Part shown: positions 10,046 to 34,600 of the stretch, piece by piece
How the letters are laid out: the number at the start of each line of letters is the position of its first letter
How positions within the stretch are numbered: position 1 is the stretch's first letter
Source of the DNA: a virus
Length of the DNA: 58,921 nucleotides
IMG/VR virus record: IMGVR_UViG_3300018080_000203
Span: 1-58,921 of that record
Reading direction: 5' to 3' (one strand)
Notes under the pieces: model-generated
Seen by the model: the letters and a program-made list of their open reading frames with translations, nothing else
The model's database searches: none
What the model was told of the DNA's origin: nothing
Program-made: the position numbers and the translations under genes

Positions 10046-10131
10046 CTAAGACCCTCCTGAGCCCATGATGCCTCAAACCGGCGCCACAGGCCAGGTTATG
10101 GCGAGATGGGCCGCACAATAATCCCCAACTT

Positions 10132-10725
10132 CTACGTTTTGTTTTTGGGCCTAACGACATCGAATCGTTCGAGCGCCACATCAAGCTCAGCGATACTCAC
10201 ATCACTGGTACTGGCGTCGAGGTCACCAGCAATTTTGATACGAGCAGGAGAACACTCATAAAGGCGATACTCCTTTGTTACTAAAGCTTCAGCATCCAAG
10301 TTCGGCCCCTTCGATGTGTCTGGCTTATGTTCTAATGCTGGACGCTGGATGTGATAGACAACAAGGTTTGTTCTATACTCATTGCCTTCTATCGCTGCGA
10401 GAACCCAGTTAAAAAATGCGGTATCATTTATAGCCACACCTCTGTTTAATGTAATCTCTGCAATAGTTGGTACACCTGGAAATTTCATTGTGTAAACGCG
10501 AATACCCTCACGATATTCTGCATGTTCCACCGTGATCTCAGGCAATGTAATGCTGTTGAAACCCGCTTCTGATCCTTCACCAATAATATACCCGGAATCC
10601 GGGTCAGTTCCCTCTGGTTGAAGTACATCGTTTGGATTATTTGCATCTCCCAATGCTAATGGAGATGTTGCTGTCGCATGAAACCTAAACGCATGAAGCG
10701 GATCTGACGCTGCTGCTCTTGGCAT
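10132..10725 (-). CDS. Tail tube-like protein (TIGR02241/gp19 type), paralogue 1
   Basis: A 197-residue protein with the tube pattern: ITLPEITVEHAEYREG near residue 58, then MKFPGVPTIAEITLNRGVAINDTAFFNWVLAAIEG, TNLVVYHIQRP, and SDVSIAELDVALERFDVV at the end. Tail tube proteins polymerise into stacked hexamers inside the sheath. It is separated from paralogue 2 by 86 bases with no gene. One copy may form the tube and the other an initiator, terminator or alternative ring. Confidence 0.65.
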   Translation of the reverse strand: MPRAAASDPLHAFRFHATATSPLALGDANNPNDVLQPEGTDPDSGYIIGEGSEAGFNSITLPEITVEHAEYREGIRVYTMKFPGVPTIAEITLNRGVAINDTAFFNWVLAAIEGNEYRTNLVVYHIQRPALEHKPDTSKGPNLDAEALVTKEYRLYECSPARIKIAGDLDASTSDVSIAELDVALERFDVVRPKNKT

Positions 10726-15722: not shown

Positions 15723-16271
15723 CTATCCTCCCGCCGCCACGTCCATGGGCTCATATGCCCTTACGGCTTGCAACTTTTCACACAAATCTACGACAACGGC
15801 CACATGTTCTGGAAAACGTTTTTTCCACTTCTTTTTCCCACGAAGGTTCCTCGCCACGAACTCTACAATCTGTCTCCAAATTTCAAAATCATTAGCCTTT
15901 TTGCTTTGCAATGGGAATGTTTCGAAATGAGGTATAACCACATCAATCAAATCCTCAACGAGATCAATCCGATAACAGACAGATGGCTTAGCTCCTTTAA
16001 CCTTACTTCTTCTACTCTTCGTGACTGGCTTTTTGTTGATACGACCAGATCCAAAGTAGTTGCGAATTTTCTCAACCACTATAGCATCGTCATCCCGCAT
16101 CCATATCTGTAAGCCAACAGAAAAATCAGTACACAAATGAGATCGACCGCTGTCAGGAGATTTTTTCATACGAAAAGACAGGCTTGCATAAAAACAACCC
16201 TCACCATCTACGAGACCTGTAACCCACCATCCAAATGAGTTTTTCCCATCGATGATCGTCTTCTCAGCCAT
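15723..16271 (-). CDS. Free-standing LAGLIDADG homing endonuclease
   Basis: A 182-residue protein. The motif WWVTGLVDGEGCFYASLSF at about residues 15-33 is a LAGLIDADG_1 helix, followed by strands and a second helix typical of single-motif enzymes that dimerise. These enzymes cut a long DNA target and promote their own spread. It is inserted one base before the sheath start, with its own ribosome site (GGAGGGAGATTAGG). LAGLIDADG enzymes are less common than HNH enzymes in phages. Confidence 0.8.
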   Translation of the reverse strand: MAEKTIIDGKNSFGWWVTGLVDGEGCFYASLSFRMKKSPDSGRSHLCTDFSVGLQIWMRDDDAIVVEKIRNYFGSGRINKKPVTKSRRSKVKGAKPSVCYRIDLVEDLIDVVIPHFETFPLQSKKANDFEIWRQIVEFVARNLRGKKKWKKRFPEHVAVVVDLCEKLQAVRAYEPMDVAAGG

Positions 16272-16298
16272 GACCTAATCTCCCTCCGTCGCCGTGGG

Positions 16299-16802
16299 CT
16301 AGCCTCGACGCTTTTTTGTTTCCTTTCCTCCCTTCTCCTTCTTCACCTGCTGCGCCTTCTCCTTCGACTTACCTATGTCTATATCTTCATTTTTATCTTT
16401 AAGTTTATCATCTTCAAGAATATTTGGTTTTTCTTTAATTGCATTCGATGCTACCACAAGCTTCTTGATATCCGAAACTTTCTTCTTTTTTTCTTCTCTT
16501 TTAGGCTCCCCAGTAGCTACCGTTTTAGGTAACACTGGGGCCTCCTTTTGTACGAGAACTTCTGTTTTTTCTTTTGGTTCTTTCGGTATTTGGTGAGGTT
16601 TTAGTGGTGCAACCATTTTCAATCGTTTCAAATGCGCGACCGAAGACATCGCAGCCTCAAACTTAAGCCTCGGAACCAAAACCGTTGGTCCAGAAGGGTC
16701 TCTCCTGATAATACGAGGTTTTTTGCCTTTTTCGTCAATGACAGCAGAAATACCCCCATCAATAGGAGTCGTTACTCTTCCAGTATACACCCACCAAGCC
16801 AT
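16299..16802 (-). CDS. Lys/Glu/Pro-rich protein with small N-terminal domain
   Basis: A 167-residue protein. Residues 1-50 look folded (WWVYTGRVTTPIDGG, then RIIRRDPSGPTVLVPR). The remainder is low complexity, dominated by Lys, Glu and Pro. N-terminal domains of this kind occur in small phage tail or head proteins. It lies between the LAGLIDADG gene and a tail-completion-type gene. No function assigned. GAGGTAAACG precedes the ATG. Confidence 0.5.
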   Translation of the reverse strand: MAWWVYTGRVTTPIDGGISAVIDEKGKKPRIIRRDPSGPTVLVPRLKFEAAMSSVAHLKRLKMVAPLKPHQIPKEPKEKTEVLVQKEAPVLPKTVATGEPKREEKKKKVSDIKKLVVASNAIKEKPNILEDDKLKDKNEDIDIGKSKEKAQQVKKEKGGKETKKRRG

Positions 16803-16810
16803 CGTTTACC

Positions 16811-17506
16811 TCACTCTCCCGCCAATGACGATTTAGGCTCTACACTTGTTTCAACATTTGGCGAAGTAGGAGCGATATAAGGATCGTTGAAGTCAAGTTC
16901 AGCTTCACATCTCAGAGATATCGTCCAGCCAATCATTCGATCAGCAACATCGGCTACCTCATCAAGGGAATCAAGAGATTCTTGGAAAGCATAGTATCCT
17001 CGTTGCTCTCCCTCAGAATCAATCAAATAAATCTGCCCATACGCCCAAAACTTTTGACCGATCTGTCTGAGCATCAAATCAGCCTGAGCTCTTTGTCTTG
17101 CTCTTATATGAATTTCGTAAGAAATATCATACGGGTACGCCCAAGCCTTGAACTCCAACGCTGACGGTCCCTGAACCCCATTGCCTGCCGTTACCAAATG
17201 AGAAGTCGCAGATGGTGTTCTGTATTCGTGGCCACCTGGAAACCATCGATTCATTGCTATCGTCACTGCCGTACGTGAAACAGCCACATGAGGAATCAAT
17301 CCTTCTTGATACACATCCTCTGGATTTTGCCAAATAACAGGAACATGACCACCATACAAATCAGGACCAAGAACTCCTTCGATAGCTATCGCGTAATCCT
17401 GCACTGTCTCTCCATCGAGCTCGATTTCGATCAGTTCTGCACCCATAGTGCGCACCAATCCTTCATCATAGTCTCTAAGAAAAACAATGCCAGTTCTTGC
17501 GCTCAT
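16811..17506 (-). CDS. Putative tail terminator/completion protein
   Basis: A 231-residue protein. The centre (LEFKAWAYPYDISYEIHIRARQRAQADLMLRQIGQKFW) and the following DEVADVADRMIGWTISLRCEAELD strand resemble tail-completion proteins that cap the tube and join it to the head. The place between connector-type genes and the sheath fits. A GTG overlaps the preceding gene, but the ATG at 17506 is better placed after GGAGTGTG. The family is inferred from context and general shape. Confidence 0.5.
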   Translation of the reverse strand: MSARTGIVFLRDYDEGLVRTMGAELIEIELDGETVQDYAIAIEGVLGPDLYGGHVPVIWQNPEDVYQEGLIPHVAVSRTAVTIAMNRWFPGGHEYRTPSATSHLVTAGNGVQGPSALEFKAWAYPYDISYEIHIRARQRAQADLMLRQIGQKFWAYGQIYLIDSEGEQRGYYAFQESLDSLDEVADVADRMIGWTISLRCEAELDFNDPYIAPTSPNVETSVEPKSSLAGE

Positions 17507-18309
17507 CACACTCCTGCCGCTACTAGATCTTGAAACCGTTGAAGTCTTTTGGCTACTGAAGCCCTCTCATATTGAAGGTCTTCTGCCGTCTTAAATCCAG
17601 CGTCTTGTGGACTAGAAATCCACTTTTCAAGAGATTTCAAAGCTCTCTTAGTAATCGTATTAGGCACCGCTCGTATAGCTGGTTTCCAGTGCGATCGTCC
17701 AGGTATAGGCGGAATTCCAAATTCGTATCTTAGTACCTCAAAGGCAATATCACGAGTTACACGTCGACTCAATAGGGCCTTAGACGGTGGACGCAATTGA
17801 ACTCCAAGATCTTTTAGTTCTTGGCGAACTTCTCTGAGTTCTTGGCGTCTTCGAGACTCTATCACACGAGCTTCCTTTTCCGTTACTCTTCGAGAAAGCA
17901 TGCTTGCTTCAAATCTGCTTGGCTCGTACGGCAACGTGTCCATTGTCCAAGGATTGCTACGTTCTAGAACCACTGTTGCAGGCTCCACAACTTCGCCACC
18001 CCTCACCTTTGGACGAACGTACAACACCGTTCTCTTTACGTCAACGGAACGTAGTCTCTGAGACGCTGCCCAACCTGGCGGAAGAATTGCCGTTAACTCC
18101 CACCCTTGTATGCTTGGAAGGTCTCTCACTCTGAGCATATCAGGATATCCTTCAATATCTTTTGGAGCTGCCGATTGAACCAACTTAAGAACATCAAATG
18201 CAACCAACTGAGGAAGGGTCTTGACAATAGCTTCCACGCGTTCAGGAAGCTCATCAACAAGCTTCAACTTCTTTTTATTTCTTGGATCTTGTTTGACAGC
18301 AAATCTCAT
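17506..18309 (-). CDS. Hypothetical neck/connector-region protein
   Basis: A 267-residue basic protein, with a mixed alpha/beta N-terminus and a highly charged helix in the centre (VTEKEARVIESRRRQELREVRQELKDLG split across two turns). No family recognised. It overlaps its neighbours by a few bases on both sides, so it is co-translated with the putative tail terminator. A neck or head-tail joining role is plausible. Confidence 0.5.
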   Translation of the reverse strand: MRFAVKQDPRNKKKLKLVDELPERVEAIVKTLPQLVAFDVLKLVQSAAPKDIEGYPDMLRVRDLPSIQGWELTAILPPGWAASQRLRSVDVKRTVLYVRPKVRGGEVVEPATVVLERSNPWTMDTLPYEPSRFEASMLSRRVTEKEARVIESRRRQELREVRQELKDLGVQLRPPSKALLSRRVTRDIAFEVLRYEFGIPPIPGRSHWKPAIRAVPNTITKRALKSLEKWISSPQDAGFKTAEDLQYERASVAKRLQRFQDLVAAGV

Positions 18310-18644
18310 GCTGTTTTACCTTTTGTTGGTATTACCTGAATCATTTTGTTAATCATGTCAATGTGTTCTGTGCAAGCACCAACAAATCCCTTGCCCTTAA
18401 CCTCAATCAAACGAGTAGATTCTTTGCCACATCTAAAACAAATATCAGCAATAGTTTGCCTGGTTAGTGGTCCCTCGTATTCTGGAAAAGCCAACTCAAC
18501 TATAGGTCCACCACAACTACGTCCCCTCAACGCATGCCCGCAATGTTTTTCCCCGCGTTTTATCCCAATATGAAGCTTTGTGCAATTGGCACAAATAAAC
18601 GAAAAACCAATCTCTCTCAATCTGTCAGACAAATAATTGCTCAC
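18306..18644 (-). CDS. Zinc-ribbon protein
   Basis: A 112-residue protein with two Cys/His clusters: C-x2-C near residue 18 then CG--RGRSCGG near residue 38, and C-x2-CG near residue 70 then C-x2-H. This suggests two zinc-binding sites, often seen in small nucleic-acid-associated phage proteins. Two GTG codons are possible starts; AGGAGG lies nine bases before the second (18644), which I prefer. It overlaps gene 18641-18991. Confidence 0.55.
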   Translation of the reverse strand: MSNYLSDRLREIGFSFICANCTKLHIGIKRGEKHCGHALRGRSCGGPIVELAFPEYEGPLTRQTIADICFRCGKESTRLIEVKGKGFVGACTEHIDMINKMIQVIPTKGKTA

Positions 18645-18991
18645 GGCCACTTGCCTCCTTGATATGCACTCGGCCTAAGTCCACCACCGCGTACATACAA
18701 CGACCTAATGCGAGTCATTCTGTCTGTTTTGACATCTGGAGTGGGCAAAATCCAAACAATATATTTTTCTGGATTGACATCTACCTCAAGAGTTGTCCCA
18801 GACGAAATATCCTGGACACGAATTATGCCAGTTGGAAGATCGACATTTGTGACACGTCCTTTTTTGATAACATTGACACCGCGCTTAGTTCTGACTGAAA
18901 CCATCTGACCAGGCACAAGCACAACGCGCTCAGCCGCTTCGTCAAGAAGCCTTGCTCCAATAGCCTCATAAAGTTGCGCGGAAAGATTCAT
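18641..18991 (-). CDS. Small protein with short capsid-tag-like N-terminus
   Basis: A 116-residue protein. The N-terminus MNLSAQLYEAIG has the L-x-E-A form of a T4-type prohead protease site and resembles the leaders of T4 internal proteins. The rest is a beta barrel-like domain (GQMVSVRTKRGVNVIKKGRVTNVD, then TTLEVDVNPEKYIVWILP). No family recognised. ATGA overlap with gene 18988-19206 shows tight coupling. An internal head or connector protein is my inference. Confidence 0.5.
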   Translation of the reverse strand: MNLSAQLYEAIGARLLDEAAERVVLVPGQMVSVRTKRGVNVIKKGRVTNVDLPTGIIRVQDISSGTTLEVDVNPEKYIVWILPTPDVKTDRMTRIRSLYVRGGGLRPSAYQGGKWP

Positions 18992-19206
18992 TTTGGTTTC
19001 GCTCCAATACTTACTAGATACCCCTCAGCATGATCGAACGAAGCACGCTTGCCAAGACTCTTCTCCTTGCCATCCACTGAAACAAACCACTCTCTCTTGC
19101 CTTTTTTGTATAACTTGGCAAGACCTTTAGTGGTCTTCATCTCAAACCCTTCTGGCGTCCTTTCCCACTCAGACAAGGCTACCTCTAACTCTTCGCTCAA
19201 CCTCAT
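18988..19206 (-). CDS. Small protein with short leader
   Basis: A 72-residue basic protein starting MRLSEELEVAL, close to the start of genes 19214-19594 and 23549-23884. The remainder (FEMKTTKGLAKLYKKGKREWFVSVDGKEKSLGKR) is a small beta domain. The ATG at 19206 matches the leader family; longer in-frame starts add a segment unlike the relatives. No known family. Confidence 0.5.
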   Translation of the reverse strand: MRLSEELEVALSEWERTPEGFEMKTTKGLAKLYKKGKREWFVSVDGKEKSLGKRASFDHAEGYLVSIGAKPK

Positions 19207-19213
19207 AACCACC

Positions 19214-19594
19214 TCACCTAAAAAACGAACGGACACCCTTTTGAGCCGCAGCAAAGGCCATTGTGTCACCACCCTGAACCCTCCAAGTGCGCCTACCGCT
19301 ATTTACGACGAAATCATCACCATAATCACGCAACTGTCCAAGGATTTTTCGAGCAAGCTTATACGCATCCTTCTTTTTTTCAAAAGTCTTTTTTGTCTCA
19401 CCACGACCTTTGATTTTAGCCTCAACGCGCCACTTTTTGTTAGGTCTCGATAAAAACAAACGTGGCCCTTTTGCTTCCACACCCTTTCTGCCCTTAGTGA
19501 TAAAAACCGGCGAAAGGTGCATTCCATGCGCGACATGCATTTCGTAAGGTGTCGGCACCTTGAGAGCTTCTTCGAGTTGTCGCGACAATCTCAT
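19214..19594 (-). CDS. Small basic protein with leader and VPTP linker
   Basis: A 126-residue basic protein. It begins MRLSRQLEEALKVPTPYEM, combining an L-x-E-A site with the VPTP linker seen in the tagged family at 20152-24839. The body is very rich in Lys and Arg (KKWRVEAKIKGRGETKKTFEKKKDAYKLARK), which would suit a DNA-condensing internal protein. It overlaps gene 19591-20151 by four bases. Confidence 0.5.
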   Translation of the reverse strand: MRLSRQLEEALKVPTPYEMHVAHGMHLSPVFITKGRKGVEAKGPRLFLSRPNKKWRVEAKIKGRGETKKTFEKKKDAYKLARKILGQLRDYGDDFVVNSGRRTWRVQGGDTMAFAAAQKGVRSFFR

Positions 19595-20151: not shown

Positions 20152-20916
20152 CTATGCCAACCTCCAAACAGGGTCACCCCTCATAGAGCCGCCAACCACC
20201 CTGCCCTCTTTCTCCAGAGCATAGAGAGCTTTCATAAACTCAGTAGCAGAAGTTCCCTTGAGACGCTTGTCCCTAAAAACCAACCTTTCCACATGATTGG
20301 TCATCATCCACTTGTCAAACTTTATCGCTTTCAAAATATTTCTTTTGAGCAAATCCATAGTGGCTGCTTGGACAATAGTCGGTTCCTTGGCTAGTTGCTT
20401 TTGTGGCTGTGGCTTTTTTTCCTTGCCAGCCGCAATCTCCTGCATGATGCGAAGGTTTTTTCTAATCACCCCTGGATTGTTGGCTCTCAGAAGCTCTGGG
20501 ATCACCTCAATCCATCGATCAACGACTCGCTGAGCGTCTTTCTTTTTTTTATGAAAGGTGCCTTTAAATCCAGAAAACTCCACCAATTGACCAGATGGCA
20601 CATGGGTTATCATCCATCCTCGACGAGCACCAACAGTGCTCTTGTGGACCGCCCAGACACCCTTTACCGAAACTTTCAGCGTATCTTTTATGTCTTCCTC
20701 GCCTGGATGCTTTGCCTTGATCACAAAATCGAACTTTTTGGTCGACCAGCCCTTAGACTTTTGCGCCTTCGGCTTCATGCCCATGGACCCCGGAGATGGT
20801 ACCTCATAAGCCTGTGCTCCTGAACCAGCCGTTGCCTCGAAGATACCCTCGATCTCGGCCTCCTGGATACCCATGATAGCTTTCGTAAGAATGACGTTTG
20901 CCCTCTCGATGTCCAC
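20152..20916 (-). CDS. Leader-tagged protein 1 (winged-helix-like C-terminus)
   Basis: A 254-residue protein, first of seven that share the N-terminal leader MDIExxNxxLxxAI-QE-EIE. Here the leader ends in IFEATAG (possible cleavage after Glu28 or so) and then YEVPSPG. The middle holds a basic domain with a FDFVIKAKHPGEEDIKDTLKVSVKG strand. The C-terminal 75 residues look like a winged helix (KFDKWMMTNHVERLVFRDKRL, ATEFMKALYALEKEGRVVGG). The start is GTG at 20916. I infer a capsid-targeted DNA-binding protein. Confidence 0.6.
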   Translation of the reverse strand: MDIERANVILTKAIMGIQEAEIEGIFEATAGSGAQAYEVPSPGSMGMKPKAQKSKGWSTKKFDFVIKAKHPGEEDIKDTLKVSVKGVWAVHKSTVGARRGWMITHVPSGQLVEFSGFKGTFHKKKKDAQRVVDRWIEVIPELLRANNPGVIRKNLRIMQEIAAGKEKKPQPQKQLAKEPTIVQAATMDLLKRNILKAIKFDKWMMTNHVERLVFRDKRLKGTSATEFMKALYALEKEGRVVGGSMRGDPVWRLA

Positions 20917-20919
20917 AAC

Positions 20920-21432
20920 CTACCCTCCTAGCTCGGCGATTTTCTTCTTGAGTCGTCGGATTTCATCGTTTCTCCAAGCAATACTTAAATCACGTTTAGC
21001 TTTTCTTCCCATAGCTCGACCAGGTATCTCTATTGCATCTTTCATTGCCGCCATATGAGCATCCCGTTGTTGTTTCTCTAATTTTTTCAACTCACGCTTG
21101 TAATCCTTGACACTTTTCAGCTTATCAATCAGTCGATCACAAGCCATCTGCCAAGCTCCAATGTGATCGATTCCCATTGAACGTGGAATATCAGAGTTTT
21201 TCTTGATTTTTCGCAAATTTGTCTTGTTTACCTTCAAGCCTTTCTTTTTGAGATAAGCTATAACAGCTTCACGAGCTTCTATTTGTGTTCTGTCCCATTT
21301 GCGCATTGGCTTTTCGCCAGGAATCGGTACATCGTAGCTCGTAACACCACGAGCTACAGCTTCATCAATTTCTCTTTCCTGAAAAGAAAGAATAGCTTTG
21401 GTGAGCACCGAATTTATACGCTCTATATCCAT
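20920..21432 (-). CDS. Leader-tagged protein 2
   Basis: A 170-residue basic protein with the shared leader (MDIERINSVLTKAI, EREIDEAVARG, then YDVPIPG). The leader is slightly shortened: the IDE-A site comes about four residues earlier than in relatives. The body is helical and Lys-rich (KKKGLKVNKTNLRKIKKN) with a long charged helix (KLKSVKDYKRELKKLEKQQRD) and a C-terminal RRLKKKIAELGG. No known domain. Probably DNA- or RNA-associated. Confidence 0.6.
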   Translation of the reverse strand: MDIERINSVLTKAILSFQEREIDEAVARGVTSYDVPIPGEKPMRKWDRTQIEAREAVIAYLKKKGLKVNKTNLRKIKKNSDIPRSMGIDHIGAWQMACDRLIDKLKSVKDYKRELKKLEKQQRDAHMAAMKDAIEIPGRAMGRKAKRDLSIAWRNDEIRRLKKKIAELGG

Positions 21433-21433
21433 C

Positions 21434-21880
21434 TCAAAAAGTCTCCCCTGTTTCAGCAGCTACATGATCAGCCGCTTCTTGAGCACGCTTATTAATCCAT
21501 ACGACGACTTTTTTAAGAGAAGCATCGTCAATGCTATCCCACCTATTAACAGCACTTTCTCCTTGATAAGCCCGAGCCTTGTACTTGTATCTTACAGGCT
21601 TTCCGTTCCACTTAAACTCAATAATATTAATACCTGGTGATACATCCGCTGATCTTATAAACCAACTCCAATCACCATGATAAAGACGAAATTCATCGCT
21701 CTTCAACGCTCGTTTTACCTTCGCTATCGTGATTTTTTTTATCCTCACTGCCTTCTTAGGACTTGGAACACGATACGACGTAACGCCATGAGCAGTCGCC
21801 TCGATTATCTCCTCGATCTCGTTCTCTTGAAAGGCAAGAATAGCATTATTGAGTATCGAATTTATACGCTCGATGTCCAT
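21434..21880 (-). CDS. Leader-tagged protein 3 (paralogue of protein 4)
   Basis: A 148-residue protein. Leader MDIERINSILNNAI, EIIEATAHG, then YRVPSPK. The body is full-length homologous to protein 4: KITIAKVKRALK, then a strand with RSADVSPGINIIEFKWNGKPVRY, and a C-terminal helix ending AQEAADHVAAE. The body looks like a small alpha/beta domain. Longer in-frame starts upstream overlap gene 21885-22337 and lie outside the leader pattern, so ATG 21880 is preferred. Confidence 0.65.
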   Translation of the reverse strand: MDIERINSILNNAILAFQENEIEEIIEATAHGVTSYRVPSPKKAVRIKKITIAKVKRALKSDEFRLYHGDWSWFIRSADVSPGINIIEFKWNGKPVRYKYKARAYQGESAVNRWDSIDDASLKKVVVWINKRAQEAADHVAAETGETF

Positions 21881-21884
21881 CTTG

Positions 21885-22337
21885 CTATACCCTTCTTTTC
21901 TCAGCCGCCACATGATCGGCCGCCTCTTGAGCATGCTCGTTAGCCCACGCAATAGCCTCTTTGAGAGAAACTTCCATTTTAGGATGGCCCTGCCATCTGT
22001 AAAGAGCGCGTTTTCCCTGATATACCTGAACTCGATATTCATATTTCACAGGCTCACCAGCCCACTTGCGCTCCACGATATAAACCCCAGGTGACACCTC
22101 GGCCGATCTACTAAACCATTCCTTGGTGTGATCAAGACGAAACTTCTCTTTTTTTAGTGCTCGTTTCACCATCGCTTCAGTAATCTTCTTCACCTTTATT
22201 GGTTTTGAGATTTTCGGACTTGGTACTTCGTATGACGAAACGCCATAAGCAGTCGCCTCGATCATCTCCTCGATCTCGCGTTCCTGAAAAGCAAGGATTG
22301 CACGAATTAAAACCGAATTAACTTGCTCAACATCCAT
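21885..22337 (-). CDS. Leader-tagged protein 4 (paralogue of protein 3)
   Basis: A 150-residue protein. Leader MDVEQVNSVLIRAI, EMIEATAYG, then YEVPSPK. The body matches protein 3 from end to end (KITEAMVKRALK, RSAEVSPGVYIVERKWAGEPVKY, EHAQEAADHVAAE), showing a tandem duplication of the whole gene. Function unknown; conservation of body as well as leader argues that both are maintained. Confidence 0.65.
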   Translation of the reverse strand: MDVEQVNSVLIRAILAFQEREIEEMIEATAYGVSSYEVPSPKISKPIKVKKITEAMVKRALKKEKFRLDHTKEWFSRSAEVSPGVYIVERKWAGEPVKYEYRVQVYQGKRALYRWQGHPKMEVSLKEAIAWANEHAQEAADHVAAEKRRV

Positions 22338-22340
22338 GGC

Positions 22341-22673
22341 CTACTCCTCTTCGTCACCTTTAGGCTTTGTCTGCACACGATGCACCATCAAAGCAGCGCA
22401 TGCACCTTCAGGAGACTTCACCGAGGTACAATCAGACAAAGCATCAATGCAATCTCTGATAGTATCGAAATCGCCTTTTTTGTTGCGATACTTTTCCATG
22501 CACTTAGCTTGTTTCGACCTTTTCTTTTTCTTTTTCTTTGCTTTCTTGGCAACCTCTTTAGGTGTCGGAATCCTGAAGCCACCAATTGCCGCCTCACTTA
22601 TTTCTTGAAGTTCGCCTTCGCGAAGCCCAACAATGGCCTTCACCAGCACCGCATTGACTTTCTCAATATCCAT
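22341..22673 (-). CDS. Leader-tagged protein 5 (Cys module)
   Basis: A 110-residue protein. Leader MDIEKVNAVLVKAI, EISEAAIGGF, then RIPTPK. A Lys-rich linker (AKKAKKKKKKRSKQ) leads to a Cys module: KCMEKYRNKKGDFDTIRDC, LSDCTSVKSPEGACAAL. This resembles the C-terminal Cys module of gene 12636-13037. ATG 22673 is preferred to the GTG three codons upstream because GGAAGG is then nine bases away. The DNA at the start is nearly identical to that of protein 6. Confidence 0.6.
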   Translation of the reverse strand: MDIEKVNAVLVKAIVGLREGELQEISEAAIGGFRIPTPKEVAKKAKKKKKKRSKQAKCMEKYRNKKGDFDTIRDCIDALSDCTSVKSPEGACAALMVHRVQTKPKGDEEE

Positions 22674-22678
22674 CCCGC

Positions 22679-23188
22679 TCACCCTTCCTTGAAAATTCTG
22701 TAATGAAAATCACGAGTTTGCCAGTGAGGGTCATCAATAGTTTTAACAGGAGACGGACCTTTGAATCGATAGACCTTCAATAAACCACCGGCAACTAATG
22801 AGACCAATGCCTTGACCTCATTTTTTTTCAACTTTTTATGACGACCAATAACAAGCAAAAGTGCACCCCACGGCCCCTCATACTCCATCTTCTTGAACAG
22901 ACCAAGAACTTTCTTTTGCGTCTTATTGAGTTTTCCTTTTTTAGCAGGCTTTATCCCTTGAAGTTTAGCGTCACCATAACGAACATTTTCACCAACAGAG
23001 TCATCAACAACATCTTTAGACTTGTCAATACCACCCTTCATCTCGCCTGCCCCAATAGTCCCTGGAGCTGGAACATCATACTTGCCAGTCACTCCCCAAG
23101 CCATCGCCTCAATAATCTCCTCAGACTCAACTTCCTGAAGACCAACGATAGCCTTTACGAGCACTGCATTGACTTTTTCAATATCCAT
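22679..23188 (-). CDS. Leader-tagged protein 6 (winged-helix-like C-terminus)
   Basis: A 169-residue protein. Leader MDIEKVNAVLVKAI, EIIEAMAWG, then YDVPAPG. A Gly/Asp-rich linker follows. The C-terminal 85 residues look like a winged helix (LNKTQKKVLGLFKKMEYEG, LKKNEVKALVSLVAGGLLKVYRF). It would bind nucleic acid if the fold is right. The first 46 bases around its start match those of protein 5 with two differences. Confidence 0.6.
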   Translation of the reverse strand: MDIEKVNAVLVKAIVGLQEVESEEIIEAMAWGVTGKYDVPAPGTIGAGEMKGGIDKSKDVVDDSVGENVRYGDAKLQGIKPAKKGKLNKTQKKVLGLFKKMEYEGPWGALLLVIGRHKKLKKNEVKALVSLVAGGLLKVYRFKGPSPVKTIDDPHWQTRDFHYRIFKEG

Positions 23189-23193
23189 CCCGC

Positions 23194-23520
23194 TCACCCT
23201 TCCTTGTCGTCAAACGCAACACCCATAATGTCGTGCAATTGAATCCATCCAGGAGACGACGACAAAAACATCGCCATCTCTTCTTTCGCCTTTGATGCCT
23301 CAACAGTATCGACCACATCATTCTCGGGCTCAATGTTTGGCTTGCCACCAATACGCCGAAGTTGACGAACCATTTTGAAACGTTCACCGCCTTTGGTCAC
23401 AGTATGAGCTGACCTTTGCGAAGTAAAACGTCCATCGTTCCCGTGATAAGTCACAGCTTCATCAATGGTTTCTCCAACCACAACACCGATGATTTTACCC
23501 AACCTCTTAGCCAATGACAT
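23194..23520 (-). CDS. Small protein with short leader and IDE-A site
   Basis: A 108-residue protein. The N-terminus MSLAKRLGKIIGVVVGETIDEAVTY ends in an I-D-E-A site like that of leader protein 2. The rest is polar (NDGRFTSQRSAHTVTKGG) with a helical C-terminus. ATG 23520 is preferred to the GTG three codons upstream because AGGTGG then has normal spacing. Likely a further processed head protein; no known family. Confidence 0.5.
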   Translation of the reverse strand: MSLAKRLGKIIGVVVGETIDEAVTYHGNDGRFTSQRSAHTVTKGGERFKMVRQLRRIGGKPNIEPENDVVDTVEASKAKEEMAMFLSSSPGWIQLHDIMGVAFDDKEG

Positions 23521-23548
23521 TATCGCCACCTATTCTGTTGGTTCAAGA

Positions 23549-23884
23549 TCACAAAATAATAGAATCGATACTTTTAGAAATAGATTCCAATTTCTTCTGG
23601 ATTGCTTTTATATTCTTATACAATCCTCCTATTTCTTTTTCAGCATTTTCCAACGTCTTTCGTTCGCGTGAAGAAAAACTAAAAGGCAAATCATCTGACG
23701 AAGGACCATAAAGATTTGCTTTTAAACTATTTCTCACATTCAATGCCTTTTTAGCAAAAATCTTACCAATATCATCAGCAAGATGCTCAAGATTCATTGA
23801 ATGCCCAGCTAATATCTCTTTAAAACTCTCACCCATTTGCTCGTTTTTCAAAGTTGCTTCAAATAACTCTTTTGACAACGACAT
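23549..23884 (-). CDS. Coiled-coil protein with LFE-A leader
   Basis: A 111-residue helical protein starting MSLSKELFEATLKN, with an L-F-E-A site at residues 7-10. Long helices follow, the last being a coiled coil (LENAEKEIGGLYKNIKAIQKKLE). It may be an internal or core protein. No known family. Confidence 0.5.
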   Translation of the reverse strand: MSLSKELFEATLKNEQMGESFKEILAGHSMNLEHLADDIGKIFAKKALNVRNSLKANLYGPSSDDLPFSFSSRERKTLENAEKEIGGLYKNIKAIQKKLESISKSIDSIIL

Positions 23885-23901
23885 GATTCTCCTCTTCCTT
23901 T

Positions 23902-24426
23902 CTACACCGTTGGCTCGATTTCACGGAACAAATCCTTGAACCGTTTGTATTTAGCCGGCGCTTCTGGTTCCATCGCATGCTTCATCGTACGCCGCACACC
24001 TTTTTGAGTCTGCCTTACACTGCTCAATTTAGCGCCTTTTTTATAGGGGGGTTTGAGGTACCCATACCTCGTCAACGCCCAACGACATATGTTCCACGCC
24101 GCCCTAGTGCTATGTTTTTTTTGAGGCTTTCCGCCTTTCTTGCTTGGCTTGCCTCCTCGTACTGCCAATACACAATGCTGCAACTGAGCAGGCACCTGAT
24201 CGACTTTAGCCTTGGCCTTTATCCCACCTGGTTTGGGTTTCTGCTTTGGTGGCTTCTTGCGCAATCCACCACGAGCCGCTTTTTTTGCTTTCCTCTTTGG
24301 TGGTTTTACATCTGCCTTCTTTTCTTTCTTTTTCTCGATTTTCTTTTTTAACTCAGCAGGAGTAGGCACACGATAACCGCCAATCTTAGCCTGTTCAAAA
24401 AGCTCATCAAGCGGAATCCAATTCAT
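23902..24426 (-). CDS. Very basic protein with LFE leader and YRVPTP linker
   Basis: A 174-residue, strongly basic protein. It begins MNWIPLDELFEQAKIGGYRVPTP, sharing its first residues with gene 29336-29557 and its linker with the tagged family. A Lys-rich stretch follows (EKKKEKKADVKPPKRKAKKAARGG). The C-terminal part (LQHCVLAVRGGK, AAWNICRWALTRYGYL, GVRRTMKHAM) resembles a helical C-terminal domain found in assorted phage proteins. A DNA-packing internal protein is plausible. Confidence 0.55.
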   Translation of the reverse strand: MNWIPLDELFEQAKIGGYRVPTPAELKKKIEKKKEKKADVKPPKRKAKKAARGGLRKKPPKQKPKPGGIKAKAKVDQVPAQLQHCVLAVRGGKPSKKGGKPQKKHSTRAAWNICRWALTRYGYLKPPYKKGAKLSSVRQTQKGVRRTMKHAMEPEAPAKYKRFKDLFREIEPTV

Positions 24427-24440
24427 ATCAATCCCAACTA

Positions 24441-24839
24441 CTAAACATCGTATTCAGAAGGACCAGACATTTTGCTACCCAAATGTGCAAAACGACCAAT
24501 GGCCTTTTGAAAATTCATCTCTATCTTCTTAAGCACTCTTCCGTCAACATTTTTGGCCATTGCATTCGCTTCTTTTTTTGCGTTATCCTCGCTTTTATAC
24601 GGACCAAATCTCACCGGCTCACCATGAGGGCCAACACCAGGACCAACACCAAAAACATACCACCTGTCCGGGCTCAGAGTCTTGAGCTTTCGCCCAAGCA
24701 TTCTTTTGGTGCTCTTGGCAAAAACGACCTGAAACACAGGTACATCAGGATTCAATGCCTCAGTCATCGTTTCAATCTCGCTTTCCTGAAGACCAAGAAT
24801 AGCCTTAGAAAGCACCGAGTTGACTCGCTCAATATCCAT
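24441..24839 (-). CDS. Leader-tagged protein 7
   Basis: A 132-residue protein. Leader MDIERVNSVLSKAI, ESEIETMTEALNP, then a different linker (VPVFQVVFAK). The body holds RWYVFGVGPGVGPHGEPVRFGPYKSEDNAKKEANAM split over a Gly-rich loop and a helix, possibly a small SPOR-like alpha/beta unit. ATG 24839 is preferred: AAAGGAGC precedes it, and the leader then aligns with its relatives. It is separated from the other six by three short-leader genes. Confidence 0.6.
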   Translation of the reverse strand: MDIERVNSVLSKAILGLQESEIETMTEALNPDVPVFQVVFAKSTKRMLGRKLKTLSPDRWYVFGVGPGVGPHGEPVRFGPYKSEDNAKKEANAMAKNVDGRVLKKIEMNFQKAIGRFAHLGSKMSGPSEYDV

Positions 24840-26204: not shown

Positions 26205-27692
26205 TCAGAGCCCGCCCGTGATCGTCACACGCCCGAACCACTCGTCGCGCAAACGCTTGGTCGCATAACGAGTCCGCATTCCTTTGCGATAACTCTGATC
26301 CTCTGGATCGAGGAACGTTGGAGTCATCTGCAATGGCACGTATGGACTGAACACGAATCCAGCGTCAAGATAACTCCGACCTCTAAGGCCGAGCATCATC
26401 TGATTCCACTGGAAAAATGGATCTTGGTAGCCCATCCATTTGTTGGAGAGCGGACCCATTCTCAAGATACCCTGGTGGCTCGTCATTGGGCCATAACTTG
26501 GCGGCACTACAACACCGTCAAACGGTCCTTGAACGTTACCAGGAGCGCTTACCCAAGGCGGCCTAAAGTCACCATGAGTTTGGAGCTGTACCAGTTTTGC
26601 AGAGATATCAGGGCTCGTTACGTACCAATTCGCAGGCGCTCTCAAGGTCTGCTTATGAATCTCAAAGCTGACCGCACTCATCCGAGTCATAACTGAACGA
26701 ATATGGTCAAGCTCATTGATGCCAGCAGGAACTGTAAAGTCAAATGTGCGAATAATTCCAGCACTCGCCAAGAAAAGCTGCCCTAAGATATCTCGATCGA
26801 TTTCGAGCGCAACTTCCTGGCTGATACCAGAGACAAGCTCGGTCTCGGCATCAACGCCATGGAATGCACGCAGGTCATCAGCAGCTTCACTCGACCAACG
26901 AGCCTTGAGCTTGCGCGTCTGTGCTCGAATGGTTTCGAATTCGATGTCGATGTAGACATCCGGGATATTCCGGTTGCCTTCCATGTCGTAGTAGTAAGTC
27001 GCTCGAACGTAATTACCAGCCACTGTGATCGTATCAAACGTAAAGTTTGTGATCTGCCCATTGGCATAGTTGATAGCGCCAGTCAATACGTCGCCAGTGA
27101 AACCACCAGCTCCGTCATCGACTGCCGTCTGTACAACCGCCTCAGTCGTTGGGTTATACTCTTCAACTGTGAGCGAATATCCTACAGTCGCATCGAGAGG
27201 ACGAACTGGGCTGTATTGAAGAATAACTGAGCCAGGAGAACCTGTGAACCACTCACCACCAGCAAGGATCGGAGTCAACTGTTCATTCGGAATTTTTTCT
27301 GACGAATATTGGTCATCAAAATTCTGAATCAGGTTAGTACCCGCTACTGTCTCACCCTTCGAACGTCCGTGCTTGTACTCGAAGTAGAACACGGCTCCAA
27401 CAGGTGCAGTCATTGGTTGGACGGACACAATCTCATTTGCGATGAGATTTGGGAACACTCGGCGCAATACTGGGAAAATGTATTTGGTATACACACCAGC
27501 ATTTGTGCTAAGAGTATCCTCGGCGAGCTGTCGGCGCATGTCGAGGAATTGATTTTCCATCAACATTGCCATGCATTTTTTGGTATAGTCCTCCTTGACT
27601 CCCTTCAAGAAGCGATCCCACTTTTCAACAAGCTGACCAGTGTAGCTGTCATCACGAATGCTCCGTGCTCCTGCTTCTTCGGTCAGATTCAT
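26205..27692 (-). CDS. Major capsid protein, T4 gp23 type
   Basis: A 495-residue protein. The stretch TKYIFPVLRRVFPNLIANEIVSVQPM followed by VFYFEYKHGRSKGET is characteristic of the gp23-type capsid family, as is the later KARWSSEAADDLRAFHG helix and DRDILGQLF. It forms the icosahedral shell. The N-terminus (MNLTEEAGARS) may be processed by the protease encoded upstream. ATG 27692 is chosen because GGAGG lies eight bases before it; an ATG five codons upstream lies in that site. A terminator follows. Confidence 0.9.
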   Translation of the reverse strand: MNLTEEAGARSIRDDSYTGQLVEKWDRFLKGVKEDYTKKCMAMLMENQFLDMRRQLAEDTLSTNAGVYTKYIFPVLRRVFPNLIANEIVSVQPMTAPVGAVFYFEYKHGRSKGETVAGTNLIQNFDDQYSSEKIPNEQLTPILAGGEWFTGSPGSVILQYSPVRPLDATVGYSLTVEEYNPTTEAVVQTAVDDGAGGFTGDVLTGAINYANGQITNFTFDTITVAGNYVRATYYYDMEGNRNIPDVYIDIEFETIRAQTRKLKARWSSEAADDLRAFHGVDAETELVSGISQEVALEIDRDILGQLFLASAGIIRTFDFTVPAGINELDHIRSVMTRMSAVSFEIHKQTLRAPANWYVTSPDISAKLVQLQTHGDFRPPWVSAPGNVQGPFDGVVVPPSYGPMTSHQGILRMGPLSNKWMGYQDPFFQWNQMMLGLRGRSYLDAGFVFSPYVPLQMTPTFLDPEDQSYRKGMRTRYATKRLRDEWFGRVTITGGL

Positions 27693-27741
27693 ATTCCGTG
27701 CCTCCATGGCCTACCTTCCCTCCGTCGTCTGACCCTTGGCG

Positions 27742-29331
27742 CTACGAGGTCAGATTCCCCGTTCCAGCCAGCTCATCGAATTCTTGCTCGGTGAGCCCGA
27801 AGTCATCCAGCGTAGCGCCTTGCTGGCCATTGCCTGATTTTTTGCGCGGCGCACCAAAAGTATCTTCTTCTAATGACCGCTGTTTTCCACGCCCAAGACG
27901 AGCGCGGATTCTTTCAGATTCATCTTCGTCACGAACACGACCGCCGCTGCTACGGCGCCCATGAGATCGAACGATTCTATCTACTTCTGACACCGAGTTG
28001 GCGCCTTCACAAAGTTCTTGAAGTTCTTCACCATCAGGGTGATGTTGGATAATGCTTTCAACGTAAGAAGCTACCTGTACATGTTCTGCTAAATCAAGAG
28101 CTTTTCTTGTACGATCATCAGCTTCTTTGATTTTCTTTTTGGCTTCTTCAGCTCGTTCTTCGGCCTTCTCAACACGCTGTTCAAGCGAGCTGATTTTATC
28201 GAGAAGTTCGCTCTTGGCTTCTTCTTCTTCACCAATATGTTCGTCTTTGGCCGACGAAAGCTCTTTTTGAAGAACTTCAATACGTTCATCAAGAGCTTCA
28301 ATGCTGTCATATTGGTCTATCTTTCCAATGAGTTTTACAATGGCATCACGCGAAGAATGACCAGCAATCTTGCGCTCAATATGAAGCCGATACGCTGCCT
28401 CTTTCGCAATAACAGCCATCTCATCATGTTCTTTTTTGATTTTCTGTACCTCGAGTTCACGCTCAGCTAAATCGCCTTCCAATTTAGCAATACGCTCATC
28501 TCTCGACGCCAACTCTTGTTGGTGAACTACTGGACTGGCAAAACTCGTTACCATCGAAGCGATACGCTCAAGAACTTGCTTTGCACCTGCTATCTCTGGA
28601 TCACTCAGGTACTCACTCCTTACACGTTCTTCAGCAGCTCCATCAATCTGCTCCATCTTTCGACGAAGCTCGGTAGAAAATTTTTCAGTCAAACGCTCTT
28701 CAACACGGCGCTCGGCTTCTGCCAACACGCCAGATGTCATCTCCTCGACTAAGCCAGGATAGTTTTTCTTTAGTTCCTCGACGGTTAGCATATTCTCTCC
28801 CTCTGGTATCCGCTGTAGCTCCTCATGGAACACCTGCGGATACGCCGAACGCGTAGCAGGGTCCGCGACGAAATCGAAAGTATCGAGTTTGAAATCCTCT
28901 TGTACTTCTTCGGTTCCATCAGGAAGCGTTTTCGTTGAACCATAGCCCCGGCTGCTTACACCAACCTGAGCCCCAGCCTCCATAATAGTCTTTAGTATAC
29001 GACCATTTGGAGTGTCCAGAATTTCAGATTCACCAATGACCTCGTTGCCCTCGACATTCAAGCCAGTAAGTAAATGACTAACACGTTGTAGCTTGGTGCG
29101 CCCATCGGCAGGGTGATCGAGCTCACCAAAGCATCGACGCATATTCATATCTTCGAGTTTTCGGTTGATTTCGCGATCCCACAAATGCTTTCTGTACAGA
29201 CGCTTATTTTCAGTCGCCTTATCACTGCGAGCATATGGACCACGAGCAACAACCTTGCCAAGCTTTCCTTTTTCAGTTGATTCCTGCAACTCAAAAGTAA
29301 GAGGCATTGTATCGATGAGTAGAGTAGCCAT
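27742..29331 (-). CDS. Prohead protease (T4 gp21 type) fused to a scaffold-like coiled coil
   Basis: A 529-residue protein. Residues 1-170 are a peptidase S80-type domain: NKRLYRKHLW, His73 in GELDHPADGR and the catalytic Ser (126 or 127) in GVSSRGYGS, then FDFVADPA. Residues about 190-470 are long coiled coils (scaffold-like), and the C-terminus is charged. In T4 the protease and scaffold are separate genes (21 and 22); the fusion suggests the scaffold carries its own protease. T4-type enzymes cut after (I/L)-x-E, which matters for the leader proteins at 18-24 kb. Confidence 0.85.
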   Translation of the reverse strand: MATLLIDTMPLTFELQESTEKGKLGKVVARGPYARSDKATENKRLYRKHLWDREINRKLEDMNMRRCFGELDHPADGRTKLQRVSHLLTGLNVEGNEVIGESEILDTPNGRILKTIMEAGAQVGVSSRGYGSTKTLPDGTEEVQEDFKLDTFDFVADPATRSAYPQVFHEELQRIPEGENMLTVEELKKNYPGLVEEMTSGVLAEAERRVEERLTEKFSTELRRKMEQIDGAAEERVRSEYLSDPEIAGAKQVLERIASMVTSFASPVVHQQELASRDERIAKLEGDLAERELEVQKIKKEHDEMAVIAKEAAYRLHIERKIAGHSSRDAIVKLIGKIDQYDSIEALDERIEVLQKELSSAKDEHIGEEEEAKSELLDKISSLEQRVEKAEERAEEAKKKIKEADDRTRKALDLAEHVQVASYVESIIQHHPDGEELQELCEGANSVSEVDRIVRSHGRRSSGGRVRDEDESERIRARLGRGKQRSLEEDTFGAPRKKSGNGQQGATLDDFGLTEQEFDELAGTGNLTS

Positions 29332-29335
29332 CCGT

Positions 29336-29557
29336 TCACCCTGACCTTATGGCACTTGATCGAAAAGGAGAGCGGGCAAGCAAATCGCCGAGCCGTCGTT
29401 TTGGTCTCTTCCGTTTTGGAACAATTTTTCGCTTACCCTTTTTCTCAAATCCAATCTTGTCCCGAGTCGTACCTCCAAAACCAAGGGCTTCCCGCCGACC
29501 ACTTCTGGTTCTTAGCCTGCTAGCTTCAAAGAGCCAATCGACGGGAATCCACGTCAC
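29336..29557 (-). CDS. Small basic protein with WIP-LFEA leader
   Basis: A 73-residue very basic protein. MTWIPVDWLFEASR matches the start of gene 23902-24426 and includes an L-F-E-A site. The remainder is Arg/Lys-rich (RKIVPKRKRPKRRLGDLL). Located between the protease-scaffold gene and an acidic core protein, where T4 has small core genes 67 and 68. Probably an internal, processed, DNA-binding head peptide. Confidence 0.55.
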   Translation of the reverse strand: MTWIPVDWLFEASRLRTRSGRREALGFGGTTRDKIGFEKKGKRKIVPKRKRPKRRLGDLLARSPFRSSAIRSG

Positions 29558-29559
29558 CT

Positions 29560-30555
29560 CTACTCGTCATCCTCGAAGTCGATTTCGTTGTCCTTATCAT
29601 CGTTGTCTTCGTCAGGTTCAATATCTTCGTCATCGTCTTCGCTGATAAGGTCTTCGTCATCGTCTTCTTCGTCGTCCTCGTAGAGCCCATTCTCGACACC
29701 CATTTGGATGGATTCAAATAGGCTTGGAGATCCGATTTCTTCATGTGTCGCAAGAGCTTTTGTCACGCCCTCGAGCAGAGAAGCAAGTCTGCTTTGAAGC
29801 TCTTCACTCACTTCGCCGCCAGCCGCCTCGATAGCCTCAGAAAGAGTCACTGCTGACTCGCTCATAGCATAGAGCATATTGCCAGCGTCGATGTCTCCCA
29901 TCGCCTCAAAGCATTCGCCAAGGAGCCAAGCCAGCCAACCGCCATTAATGGCAGCTTCTTCATGGGGCGAAACCTCTCCAGTATTGGTGTCGCTGTTCTC
30001 CAGCTCTTCTCTGAGCTGTTGAAGCTGAGCGGCCACACCCTCTTGACGGACAATAAAGCCCTTTTTCGCCACTTTTGAGAGACGTTTACGGCGCTTTTTG
30101 ATCTTGGCCTTTTTGCGCTTATAGTACATTTTGGCAGCAGCACGAAGTTGACCTTTTTTCTTTCTTCTGGCTGCCTTCTCTTTGCGCTTTTGTTTGACAG
30201 TGACTTTCACCAACTTCCCAGTTTTGGGGTCAACTCTGAAACCCCTCTTTCTGCGAACCATGCGTTCTCCAAGAAAAACGAGATCTTCGTCTTCCTCTAA
30301 ATCACTGCCATCCCATTCAACATGCTGTTGTTCGTTGTCATCAGCTTCAGAAGTATCATGCTCATCATTGTCAGAGCTCTCGTTTTCTTCTGTCAATCGT
30401 GGACGCACCGCCTCAGAGGTCGGTGGACTTCCAGCATGTTGTTCAAGTAGCCCAGAATTGCGCTCGATGTCATCCATGACCTTGCTTGGATCGAGCCCAA
30501 TACCTTCAAGCTCCTCACTCAGTGGGCGAACTTTGAAATCTTTCCGATTGAACAT
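29560..30555 (-). CDS. Charged prohead core-type protein
   Basis: A 331-residue protein with striking charge blocks. The N-terminal third is acidic. A strongly basic segment follows (KTGKLVKVTVKQKRKEKAARRKKKGQ, then KKRRKRLSK, read in pieces). Next comes a helical domain (LAWLLGECFEAMGDIDAGNMLYAMSESA). The 45-residue tail is almost all Asp/Glu. The N-terminus contains LSEELEG, another possible protease site. A core or DNA-associated head protein is likely. Confidence 0.5.
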   Translation of the reverse strand: MFNRKDFKVRPLSEELEGIGLDPSKVMDDIERNSGLLEQHAGSPPTSEAVRPRLTEENESSDNDEHDTSEADDNEQQHVEWDGSDLEEDEDLVFLGERMVRRKRGFRVDPKTGKLVKVTVKQKRKEKAARRKKKGQLRAAAKMYYKRKKAKIKKRRKRLSKVAKKGFIVRQEGVAAQLQQLREELENSDTNTGEVSPHEEAAINGGWLAWLLGECFEAMGDIDAGNMLYAMSESAVTLSEAIEAAGGEVSEELQSRLASLLEGVTKALATHEEIGSPSLFESIQMGVENGLYEDDEEDDDEDLISEDDDEDIEPDEDNDDKDNEIDFEDDE

Positions 30556-31610: not shown

Positions 31611-34600
31611 CTATAAACTTGCTTCCGCTCGCATCGTTTTACGAAGGTCTACAAGCAATCCGCCCAGTTCACGCATTCGCTTATTGACCACCGCGTTTTC
31701 CCTATACAATCGGGCAAATTTCTCATTTACCCGCCTTTCTGTCTCACGATTTCCTTTCTCAAACTCACGCCGCCAATCGAAATTAGGGACAGCTTTGATC
31801 AATTGTGATAAACGCCGATCAAATTGATGAACTTCTGTCAATGTTGGAGCTCCACCAGAAACTGTCTCATCATCTACAGACATCTGAAGCTTTTGGATCT
31901 GAGCCTCTACAGCTCCATCCTTCAACCTCTCCTCGTTTTTCTCTTCCATAACCTTGACAGCTTCTTCTTCTGTAAACTTGAAAAGGTGAACCAAAAGCCA
32001 CTTGGTTGACACCATCTCGCCCATTCTTGAAGCGAGATCAGCAGTGGTGTTCATGACTTCCATTCTGGCCAATTCAAGAATCGACGACGGAACAGTCATG
32101 TGTACTTGATAATCGTATTTATCTGATTCTCTGCCGATAGCTATAAGGTGAACTCGGCATGCTTTTCGATACCCACCTCTTAGGCATCGCTGAATACGCA
32201 TAATAGCACGAGCAAACCTGATATCTTGGGTGGACAATTGCCCTTGAACAGGCTCTCCACCGTACCCATAGTACGCCTTTGGTATTTTTAACGAGGCAAC
32301 AAGCTTATCACGGTGATACTCAAGACTATCGGTCTCGGTGTAATCAGGCCCTTGGATGACGTCTATTTCAGTCGTCCGCTTTCCATCACGAACAGGTATA
32401 AAGAAGTCTTCATCATGAGAATTTTTTACAAAAATTCCAGCAGACAACGCGAATGTATGTGTTTTTCCAACTGTCAGCGTAAAAGTATCAGCCCGCTCTT
32501 CAAGCCATTCAATAGACACGACTTTGTGGTTATCACCAATGGCGGCCTTCCGAAATGAATCAAAATCATCATATCCCTCTTCCCTCACCATCTTTAGAAG
32601 CATATGACGATGAATTGATACGACCTTTCTTGTATTGGCCTCTTGAAGGACATCGCGAAGCACATCAAAAGCAGCCAAAGCAATATCATCCATACTGGCT
32701 TCTGGGTTACTGCGTACAAGCTCTTTGACTCCTTCAATAAAAACCAAAGGAAACTTGATCCGCATATTCCTGCTTGCCTTCTCGCGCCGTTCATGATTAG
32801 CCCAAAGCTCGCTCATGGCCTTGCTGCGGATCTCGTTATCCCTGGCATGCTGCTCAGAGCTATTGTACTCACGAATAAATCGACCCTGGTCTCTCTCCTT
32901 GTTCCACTCAGCAAGCTTCTCACGACGCTCGGTGCTCTGGTTGTACCGAGTTATATTTTGACGAGATGCATTCCTGAGTCGCTGATCAAGTTCTGGATCT
33001 TCAATCCTTGCTCTCTTGAGAGCCTCGCCACCATTGACACCAAGCATACGATGAAAAGCCAAATGATCTTTATAAACCATTCCAATCAAATTTGAAGGAA
33101 GATTGTTCAATGGATTGAAATCGTCGTGGTGAACGAGTTCATTCTTCTTTTTGAGTTTGAGGTCCGAAGCCACCACACGATGCCCATAGAGTGACTTTCT
33201 CGTTTTTGGACAGTAGACCAATTCATAGCCTTCAAGCGTCTCACCCTTGGCCTTAGAGCTAATCCGCCTACGAAATGGCATCAAAGAATCTCCAGGTCGT
33301 AAATTTTGAGCTTCTACTTTTGAACAATCTCGACGAATCATTTTGTGGTCTGGAGTCACAATGACTGACTCGCCGTTGTCCAAAGTAACTCTTACGAGCT
33401 GAGCATCACGTCGCGTCTTACCAGCCCACTCTACCTTTCCAGGCCGAAGCTTTCCATCATTATCGAGGTCAACTGACCAAACCCACTGCTCTTCACCAAG
33501 AGCATATGCATTTGCCATCTCCTCTATTGTTCTCACGCTTCCATCGAGAAGCTGAATCTCGGTTTTCCCGTGCAAACACAAAGGGTTATAACGCATATCG
33601 AGTTTACCAGTAGAATTATGAACAAAAACATTGCTTACCAATGCAAAATTAGCATACTTATCTACATCCATATTATAAACATCTTCATATCCATCAAAAC
33701 GCACATCAACAACTCGATGATTTATCTCCTCTCCAGCTCTTCTCTCATACTTTCTGTTGCGCCATTTACAATGACCAACAACCTGTCGCTTGAAATCCTT
33801 GAAACCTTTGTAGCCCTGTCGTCCAAGCCAAACTTTGAAACACCCATAACTCATAACCGACTTCTGTGTCGTTGGAAGATTTTTATATAAAACCAAAAAT
33901 TCCTTATCTGTATTGAGGTGTTCAACTAATTCCTCAGCCGTAATCAATGGATCACACTCAATCAATTTCACAACTACAGACATCATCGCATCATAAATAG
34001 GCTCAGATGCTTTTTTGCGATCATCAACGTTTTTACGACCGTTCTCTGCACAAACTTTTCTAACAAGATCAGGATTACGCGACCGCCACGCATTCAACCG
34101 CTCAGCAACATCACTAGCAAACACTTTATCCGTCTTTACACGATGCACAAAAGAATCTCTGGCCTTTTTTAGATTTTCACCAAGATGTTTTTTGGCATGA
34201 CTTTCTCTTTCACCTACTTCAAGATTCGATGGATCATTGTTTGATTTTACACGATCTTTATGATGAACTACAGCATCAGATAACCCCTCAAACAATTCTG
34301 GCCACAACTCGCGTGCAACAAGTGAATGAACATGTTCTTGCTTACCATCAAACGGCTGCTTGATTTTTGTGTAGCCGCGTCCACCATTGGTTCTCGCCAT
34401 CAAAATCGGCATCAAACGATCTCCAGCCTTCAACTGATCACACCGCCTGTAAACACCATCTCGCATAAGAAACGGATGATGACCTGTTGCTCTAACAACC
34501 GCTCCACTGTCTAAAACAACCCTGTAAACAGGAACATTTTTTCCTGTCTGTCTTGGATTTTTTGCAAGACCAGGTACAACCTTTCCTTTAGAAAGGTCAA

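Follow-up and report, generated by a model that had tools for sequence, protein, structure and literature searches.

A shared N-terminal leader on unrelated head-locus proteins of an uncultured T4-like phage, a probable cleavable capsid-targeting propeptide

The tagged genes and their leader

The window analysed here is the whole of IMG/VR virus record IMGVR_UViG_3300018080_000203 (58,921 nucleotides) and, as judged from Pfam matches of its Gp23 capsid protein, S77 protease and T4-type portal, it comes from a T4-like myovirus. A preliminary description of this DNA had proposed that seven genes share one cleavable-looking N-terminal leader in front of different bodies. The leader, named MDIE-type here after its first residues, is present on all seven of them, all on the minus strand. 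In this uncultured T4-like lineage it is very probably a cleavable capsid-targeting propeptide that acts like the leaders of the T4 internal proteins (IP) and Alt. The genes, named in the text by their ends, are the following, with a slash marking the predicted cut.

24441-24839 (-), tagged protein of 132 residues; leader 24759-24839, MTE/A; without the Y-x-V-P-x-P linker
22679-23188 (-), tagged protein of 169 residues; leader 23108-23188, IIE/A; linker KYDVPAP
22341-22673 (-), tagged four-Cys protein of 110 residues; leader 22593-22673, ISE/A; linker GFRIPTP
21885-22337 (-), tagged protein of 150 residues; leader 22257-22337, MIE/A; linker SYEVPSP; body paralogous to that of 21434
21434-21880 (-), tagged protein of 148 residues; leader 21800-21880, IIE/A; linker SYRVPSP
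20920-21432 (-), tagged protein of 170 residues; leader 21361-21432, IDE/A; linker SYDVPIP
20152-20916 (-), tagged protein of 254 residues, GTG start; leader 20836-20916, IFE/A; linker AYEVPSP

Gene starts are mechanical choices; the tagged forms start at 20916 (GTG), 21432, 21880, 22337, 22673, 23188 and 24839, and in-frame starts further upstream are present in four of the seven open reading frames (ORFs). The leader is about 27 residues in length and consists of MD[IV]E[RQK]xNxxLxxAI, a helical Gln/Glu stretch and a hydrophobic-x-Glu/Ala site. Eleven of the 41 columns in the seven-leader alignment are invariant (M1, D2, E4, N7, L10, A13, I14, E19, E21, E27 and A28). The leader of 20920 is shorter by 3 residues, its E24 and A25 being equivalent to E27 and A28 of the others. 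The cleavage-like sites are those described earlier, with I-x-E/A in five and M-x-E/A in two, the latter lying beyond the strict T4 motif L/I-x-E; because of these two sites the strict rule of Leu or Ile at P3 was left unapplied. The linker [YF]x[VI]PxP had been reported behind six of the seven leaders and is found there, 24441 being the one without it.

Between leaders, identity is 0.6-0.9 at codon positions 1 and 2 and about 0.2-0.7 at position 3. The far better conservation of the first two positions indicates that the amino acid sequence of the leader is under selection and that the leaders are not fresh copies. About 14 bases before the start codon are also common to 22341 and 22679, which suggests that the leader cassette was copied more recently in this pair.

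The presumed processing enzyme is encoded in the same locus, next to the capsid gene.

27742-29331 (-), S77 (T4 gp21-family) prohead protease (Pfam), extended at the C-terminus by a long additional part
26205-27707 (-), Gp23-type major capsid protein (Pfam)

The gp21-type protease of the preliminary description is thus borne out by a match to Peptidase_S77 (PF03420; E 2e-16, 60.4 bits against a curated cut-off of 27), in the company of Gp23 (Pfam E 3e-59) and a T4-type portal, Gp20 (Pfam E 6e-49). In relatives, the N-terminus of Gp23 itself reads NLTE/AG or NLNE/AG.

Leader exchange and further leader types

No close relative of the window was found in the phage collection, and its nearest relatives are uncultured contigs. 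L001 and L002 are near identical to it, L003-L006 have capsid proteins of 91-92% identity and L007, a record of 148 kb, has one of 77%. L101, a T4-like contig of 183 kb assigned by binning to a Phycisphaerae metagenome-assembled genome, has a capsid protein 66% identical to that of L007. Since relatives are few, evolutionary statements made here are drawn from four lineages. A profile built from the seven leaders recovers the seven themselves (E 1e-19 to 1e-26, partly circular values) and five independent copies in L007 at E 3e-14 to 3e-9.

The bodies behind the leaders differ, as had been stated: with the leaders removed, the only related pair is 21434 and 21885 (54%, 7e-37). The strongest evidence for a detachable module comes from homologous bodies that stand under other leaders or in fusions in the relatives, where body homology sets in at the predicted Glu/Ala cut or no more than about three residues away from it. 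Both 21434 and 21885 match L006 9681-10322 from residue 28, the first residue past E27, and in L006 this body is fused behind a homologue of 23194. Gene 18641 carries the short leader MNLSAQLYEAIGARLLDE/A, while its orthologue L007 18682 has an MDIE-type leader, MDVQRINAVLREAI..., on a homologous body; homology extends from residue 16, with the site at E18/A19. For 23194, whose site is E24/A25, homology begins at residue 24 against L007 and at residue 26 against L006. The leader type is the same in the L007 orthologues of 22341 (16049-16375) and 20152 (16903-17490). Window leaders are closer to each other (14 of 22 residues) than are the leaders of body orthologues across genomes (10-11 of 22). 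When it was tested whether leaders track body orthology, no matching clustering was seen in the L007 genome; concerted evolution is not established, because the L007 leaders cluster otherwise than those of the window.

The count of seven tagged genes holds for the MDIE type and is too low for the head locus, where at least six more genes carry other leaders or extensions. Two shorter leader types with the same kind of site are LS (M[KR]LSxxLxEA) and WIP (WIPxDxLFEA).

29336-29557 (-), small basic protein with WIP-type leader MTWIPVDWLFE/A, between the scaffold-like gene and the protease gene
23902-24426 (-), WIP-type leader MNWIPLDELFE (24394-24426); linker GGYRVPTP
23549-23884 (-), LS-type leader MSLSKELFE/A (23858-23884)
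23194-23529 (-), longer N-terminal extension with the end TIDE/A (23458-23529)
19214-19594 (-), LS-type leader MRLSRQLEE/A
18988-19206 (-), small protein with N-terminus MRLSEELEVALSE; probable LS-type leader, a weaker case
18641-18991 (-), LS-type leader MNLSAQLYEAIGARLLDE/A

The segment Y-x-V-P-x-P stands behind leaders of all three types, MDIE, LS and WIP, and is all but absent from untagged genes. The motif [ILM]-x-E-[AGS] occurs within the first 45 residues in 14 of 21 head-locus genes against 5 of 72 elsewhere (Fisher 6e-8; shuffles average 3.3), and in 9 of 18 against 30 of 202 genes of the L007 genome, values that are indicative only because the region was picked after inspection and paralogues are not independent. 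The C-terminus of 23194-23529 (-), PGWIQLHDIMG (PGWIPLHDVMG in L006, PGWVPVHDIV in L007), also resembles a WIP-type leader, at the opposite end of the protein.

No credible match to Pfam, PHROG, NCBIfam or PDB was obtained for the bodies of the tagged proteins in the window, and the winged-helix and Cys-module labels given to some of them earlier are without library support. In the predicted model of 21434 (predicted local distance difference test, pLDDT, 77), the leader forms a low-confidence helix (residues 3-30), a disordered stretch comes next, and residue 52 opens a confident alpha-beta4-alpha domain, for which Foldseek, run against PDB and a viral library, gave no match at E <= 0.001. 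The predicted model of 20152 is unusable (pLDDT 34).

Some tagged proteins of the relatives are more telling. In L006, the protein of 7990-8250 (+) has a HicA toxin domain (PF07927, 2e-15, residues 17-72) immediately after its LS leader. This gene sits between the capsid and neck genes, and none is present at that place in the window. The L007 genome encodes two large tagged proteins with HExxH at 106925-110336 (-) (L024 6925-8877 and 8879-10336). In the first, which has HEMGHH and a degenerate MDIE-type leader, a further LS-type motif lies inside the protein at residue 485, with a separate stretch behind it; the second has HELGH, an LS-type leader and an LS-type motif at its C-terminus. These additional LS-type motifs suggest internal or C-terminal tags. 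No credible family match was found for either protein, with Pfam silent, and the possible zincin-like identity is read from the HExxH motif.

Comparison with known systems and proposed role

The T4 protease gp21 cleaves behind L/I-x-E; for IPIII, the 10 N-terminal residues are enough for packaging, and proteins fused to the capsid-targeting sequence (CTS) reach the host (PMC9026906). The injected T4 proteins Ip1-3 have the leader alone in common and block different GmrSD enzymes (PMC12373910). The leader of IPII and IPIII is MKTYQEFIAE/A and that of IPI is MKTFKEFTSTTTPVSTITE/A, the IPI cut being read from the motif. Like the CTS of IPI, IPII, IPIII and Alt, the MDIE leader is a short N-terminal propeptide on otherwise unrelated proteins that ends in hydrophobic-x-Glu/Ala, a gp21-family protease is encoded, and the accessory cargo differs between relatives. 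In contrast to T4, the leader has about 27 instead of 10 residues and appears to belong to another sequence family, two more short leader types are present, the Y-x-V-P-x-P segment is kept just past the cut and the cargo genes lie within the head operon. The MDIE leader probably works like the T4 CTS; the principle is familiar from T4, and the novelty lies in the MDIE tag family and in much of its cargo.

In phiKZ and SPN3US, too, a number of head and ejection proteins carry propeptides that end in x-x-E sites and are cut off by a gp21-like protease, and gp53 and gp54 have 15 identical N-terminal residues (PMC5694885). However, the propeptides of SPN3US are mostly longer than 100 residues with the motif A-x-E, whereas the leaders here are short, and T4 families are matched directly by both capsid and protease. 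In L046 and L095, two distant uncultured T4-like contigs, several different proteins near the capsid gene start with MKTFxEWLE or similar, close to the CTS of T4 IPII and IPIII and distinct from the MDIE family. Leader arrays are therefore a recurrent T4-like trait.

Ten MDIE-type leaders are present in the L007 genome at three places, namely the head locus, 104-109 kb and 119 kb (the last on the other strand), and one of the ten belongs to a large protein with HExxH. In L101, an ORF of 50 residues at 18035-18187 (+) consists of an MDIE-type leader and an acidic tail alone. The preliminary description had held that leader homologues in phages lacking a gp21-type protease would speak against its proposal; an S77 protease is encoded in all four records tested and thus in every leader-bearing one (3 of 3). 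Further afield, tblastn returned no leader from 50,697 phage records, and the seven-leader alignment, when scanned against viral contigs, picked up near-identical ones only. In LR756511 (595 kb), which has the closest capsid of the phage collection (35%), there is no convincing leader within 20 kb, and none of MDIE type is present in seven large T4-like contigs of about 35% capsid identity. As far as tested here, the MDIE family is limited to one small clade.

The proposal of a modular address tag for head cargo is supported by the S77 protease, the detachable leader and the T4 precedent. At the sequence level, it is carried by a conserved leader on unrelated bodies, by leader exchange with junctions near the cut and by the co-occurrence with S77. 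Several observations count against it. Two of the seven sites have Met rather than Leu or Ile at P3. The 27-residue leader has no demonstrable homology to the 10-residue CTS of IPIII (MKTYQEFIAE, compared by eye, 10 residues being too short for a statistic). The 25.9-kb fragment of L006, in spite of a 91%-identical capsid, is without an MDIE leader and has shorter types only; its fused cargo at 9681-10322 lacks any N-terminal leader; and the leader-only ORF is the sole find in the L101 contig.

A leader that is never removed could serve as a permanent docking helix for a common partner, such as the core, the capsid or a DNA-associated protein. Its predicted, low-confidence helicity and a length greater than that of the T4 IP leaders would suit such a role, and cleavage itself is a prediction. 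However, each of the seven leaders has a gp21-type site at its end, an S77 protease is encoded next door, and homology boundaries fall at or near Glu/Ala, which a permanent domain would not require; we regard this explanation as improbable. Much harder to accept is an ordinary tandem gene family, in which the N-terminus is kept since it folds with the body, the C-termini diverge fast and no targeting is involved. The true duplicates 21434 and 21885, and the leader together with its upstream bases common to 22341 and 22679, speak for such a family. Against it, the leader occurs on unrelated bodies and at three distinct locations within one genome, other leaders take its place on homologous bodies, and a disordered linker parts leader from body in the predicted model. 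Just as improbable is a tag that sends proteins elsewhere, for example to the neck, the tail or a replication compartment: the array does sit between head genes and neck and tail genes, yet 19591, 17506 and 16811, in conserved positions toward the tail, are without the tag, and the processing motif suits a head protease.

With a cleavable capsid-targeting propeptide as the preferred explanation, we infer core binding, cleavage, packaging and injection of the tagged proteins as follows. During head assembly the leader helix would bind the prohead core, and the fused protein would thereby be built into the prohead. The S77 protease would cut after hydrophobic-x-Glu, and the mature proteins, beginning Ala-x-...-Y-x-V-P-x-P, would remain alongside the DNA in the head. 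Part or all of the cargo would probably be injected at infection, like the T4 IPs and Alt. The tag would be portable: accessory cargo genes would gain, lose and exchange this module, which comes in three leader types. More tentatively, and with considerable doubt, the address may have two parts, a removable leader that loads the head and a retained Y-x-V-P-x-P that serves a second step, for instance attachment to DNA or the portal, or exit during injection, with cargo including HicA-type and HExxH zincin-like enzymes, some of them as internally cleavable two-cargo fusions.

Where homology search fails in uncultured T4-like phages, the tag may provide a sequence handle for head cargo and, probably, for injected effectors; it already marks the HicA-domain protein and the two HExxH proteins as candidate cargo. 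It further suggests that the targeting peptide varies between T4-like lineages under a constant cut-site rule. Leader-first mining may turn up many counter-defence proteins.

Neighbouring genes

Two further genes of the head module lie beyond the protease gene.

29560-30555 (-), Asp/Glu-rich protein in the slot of the prohead core or scaffold protein (inferred from position and composition)
31611-35636 (-), T4-type portal (Gp20), split by inteins

The portal gene contains intein splicing domains and an HNH endonuclease domain, and the next gene, 35640-38804 (-), also contains an intein. Free-standing homing-endonuclease-like ORFs were recognised by eye at 15723-16271 (LAGLIDADG-like) and 5945-6424 (HNH-like), both on the minus strand and adjoining tail sheath or tail genes.
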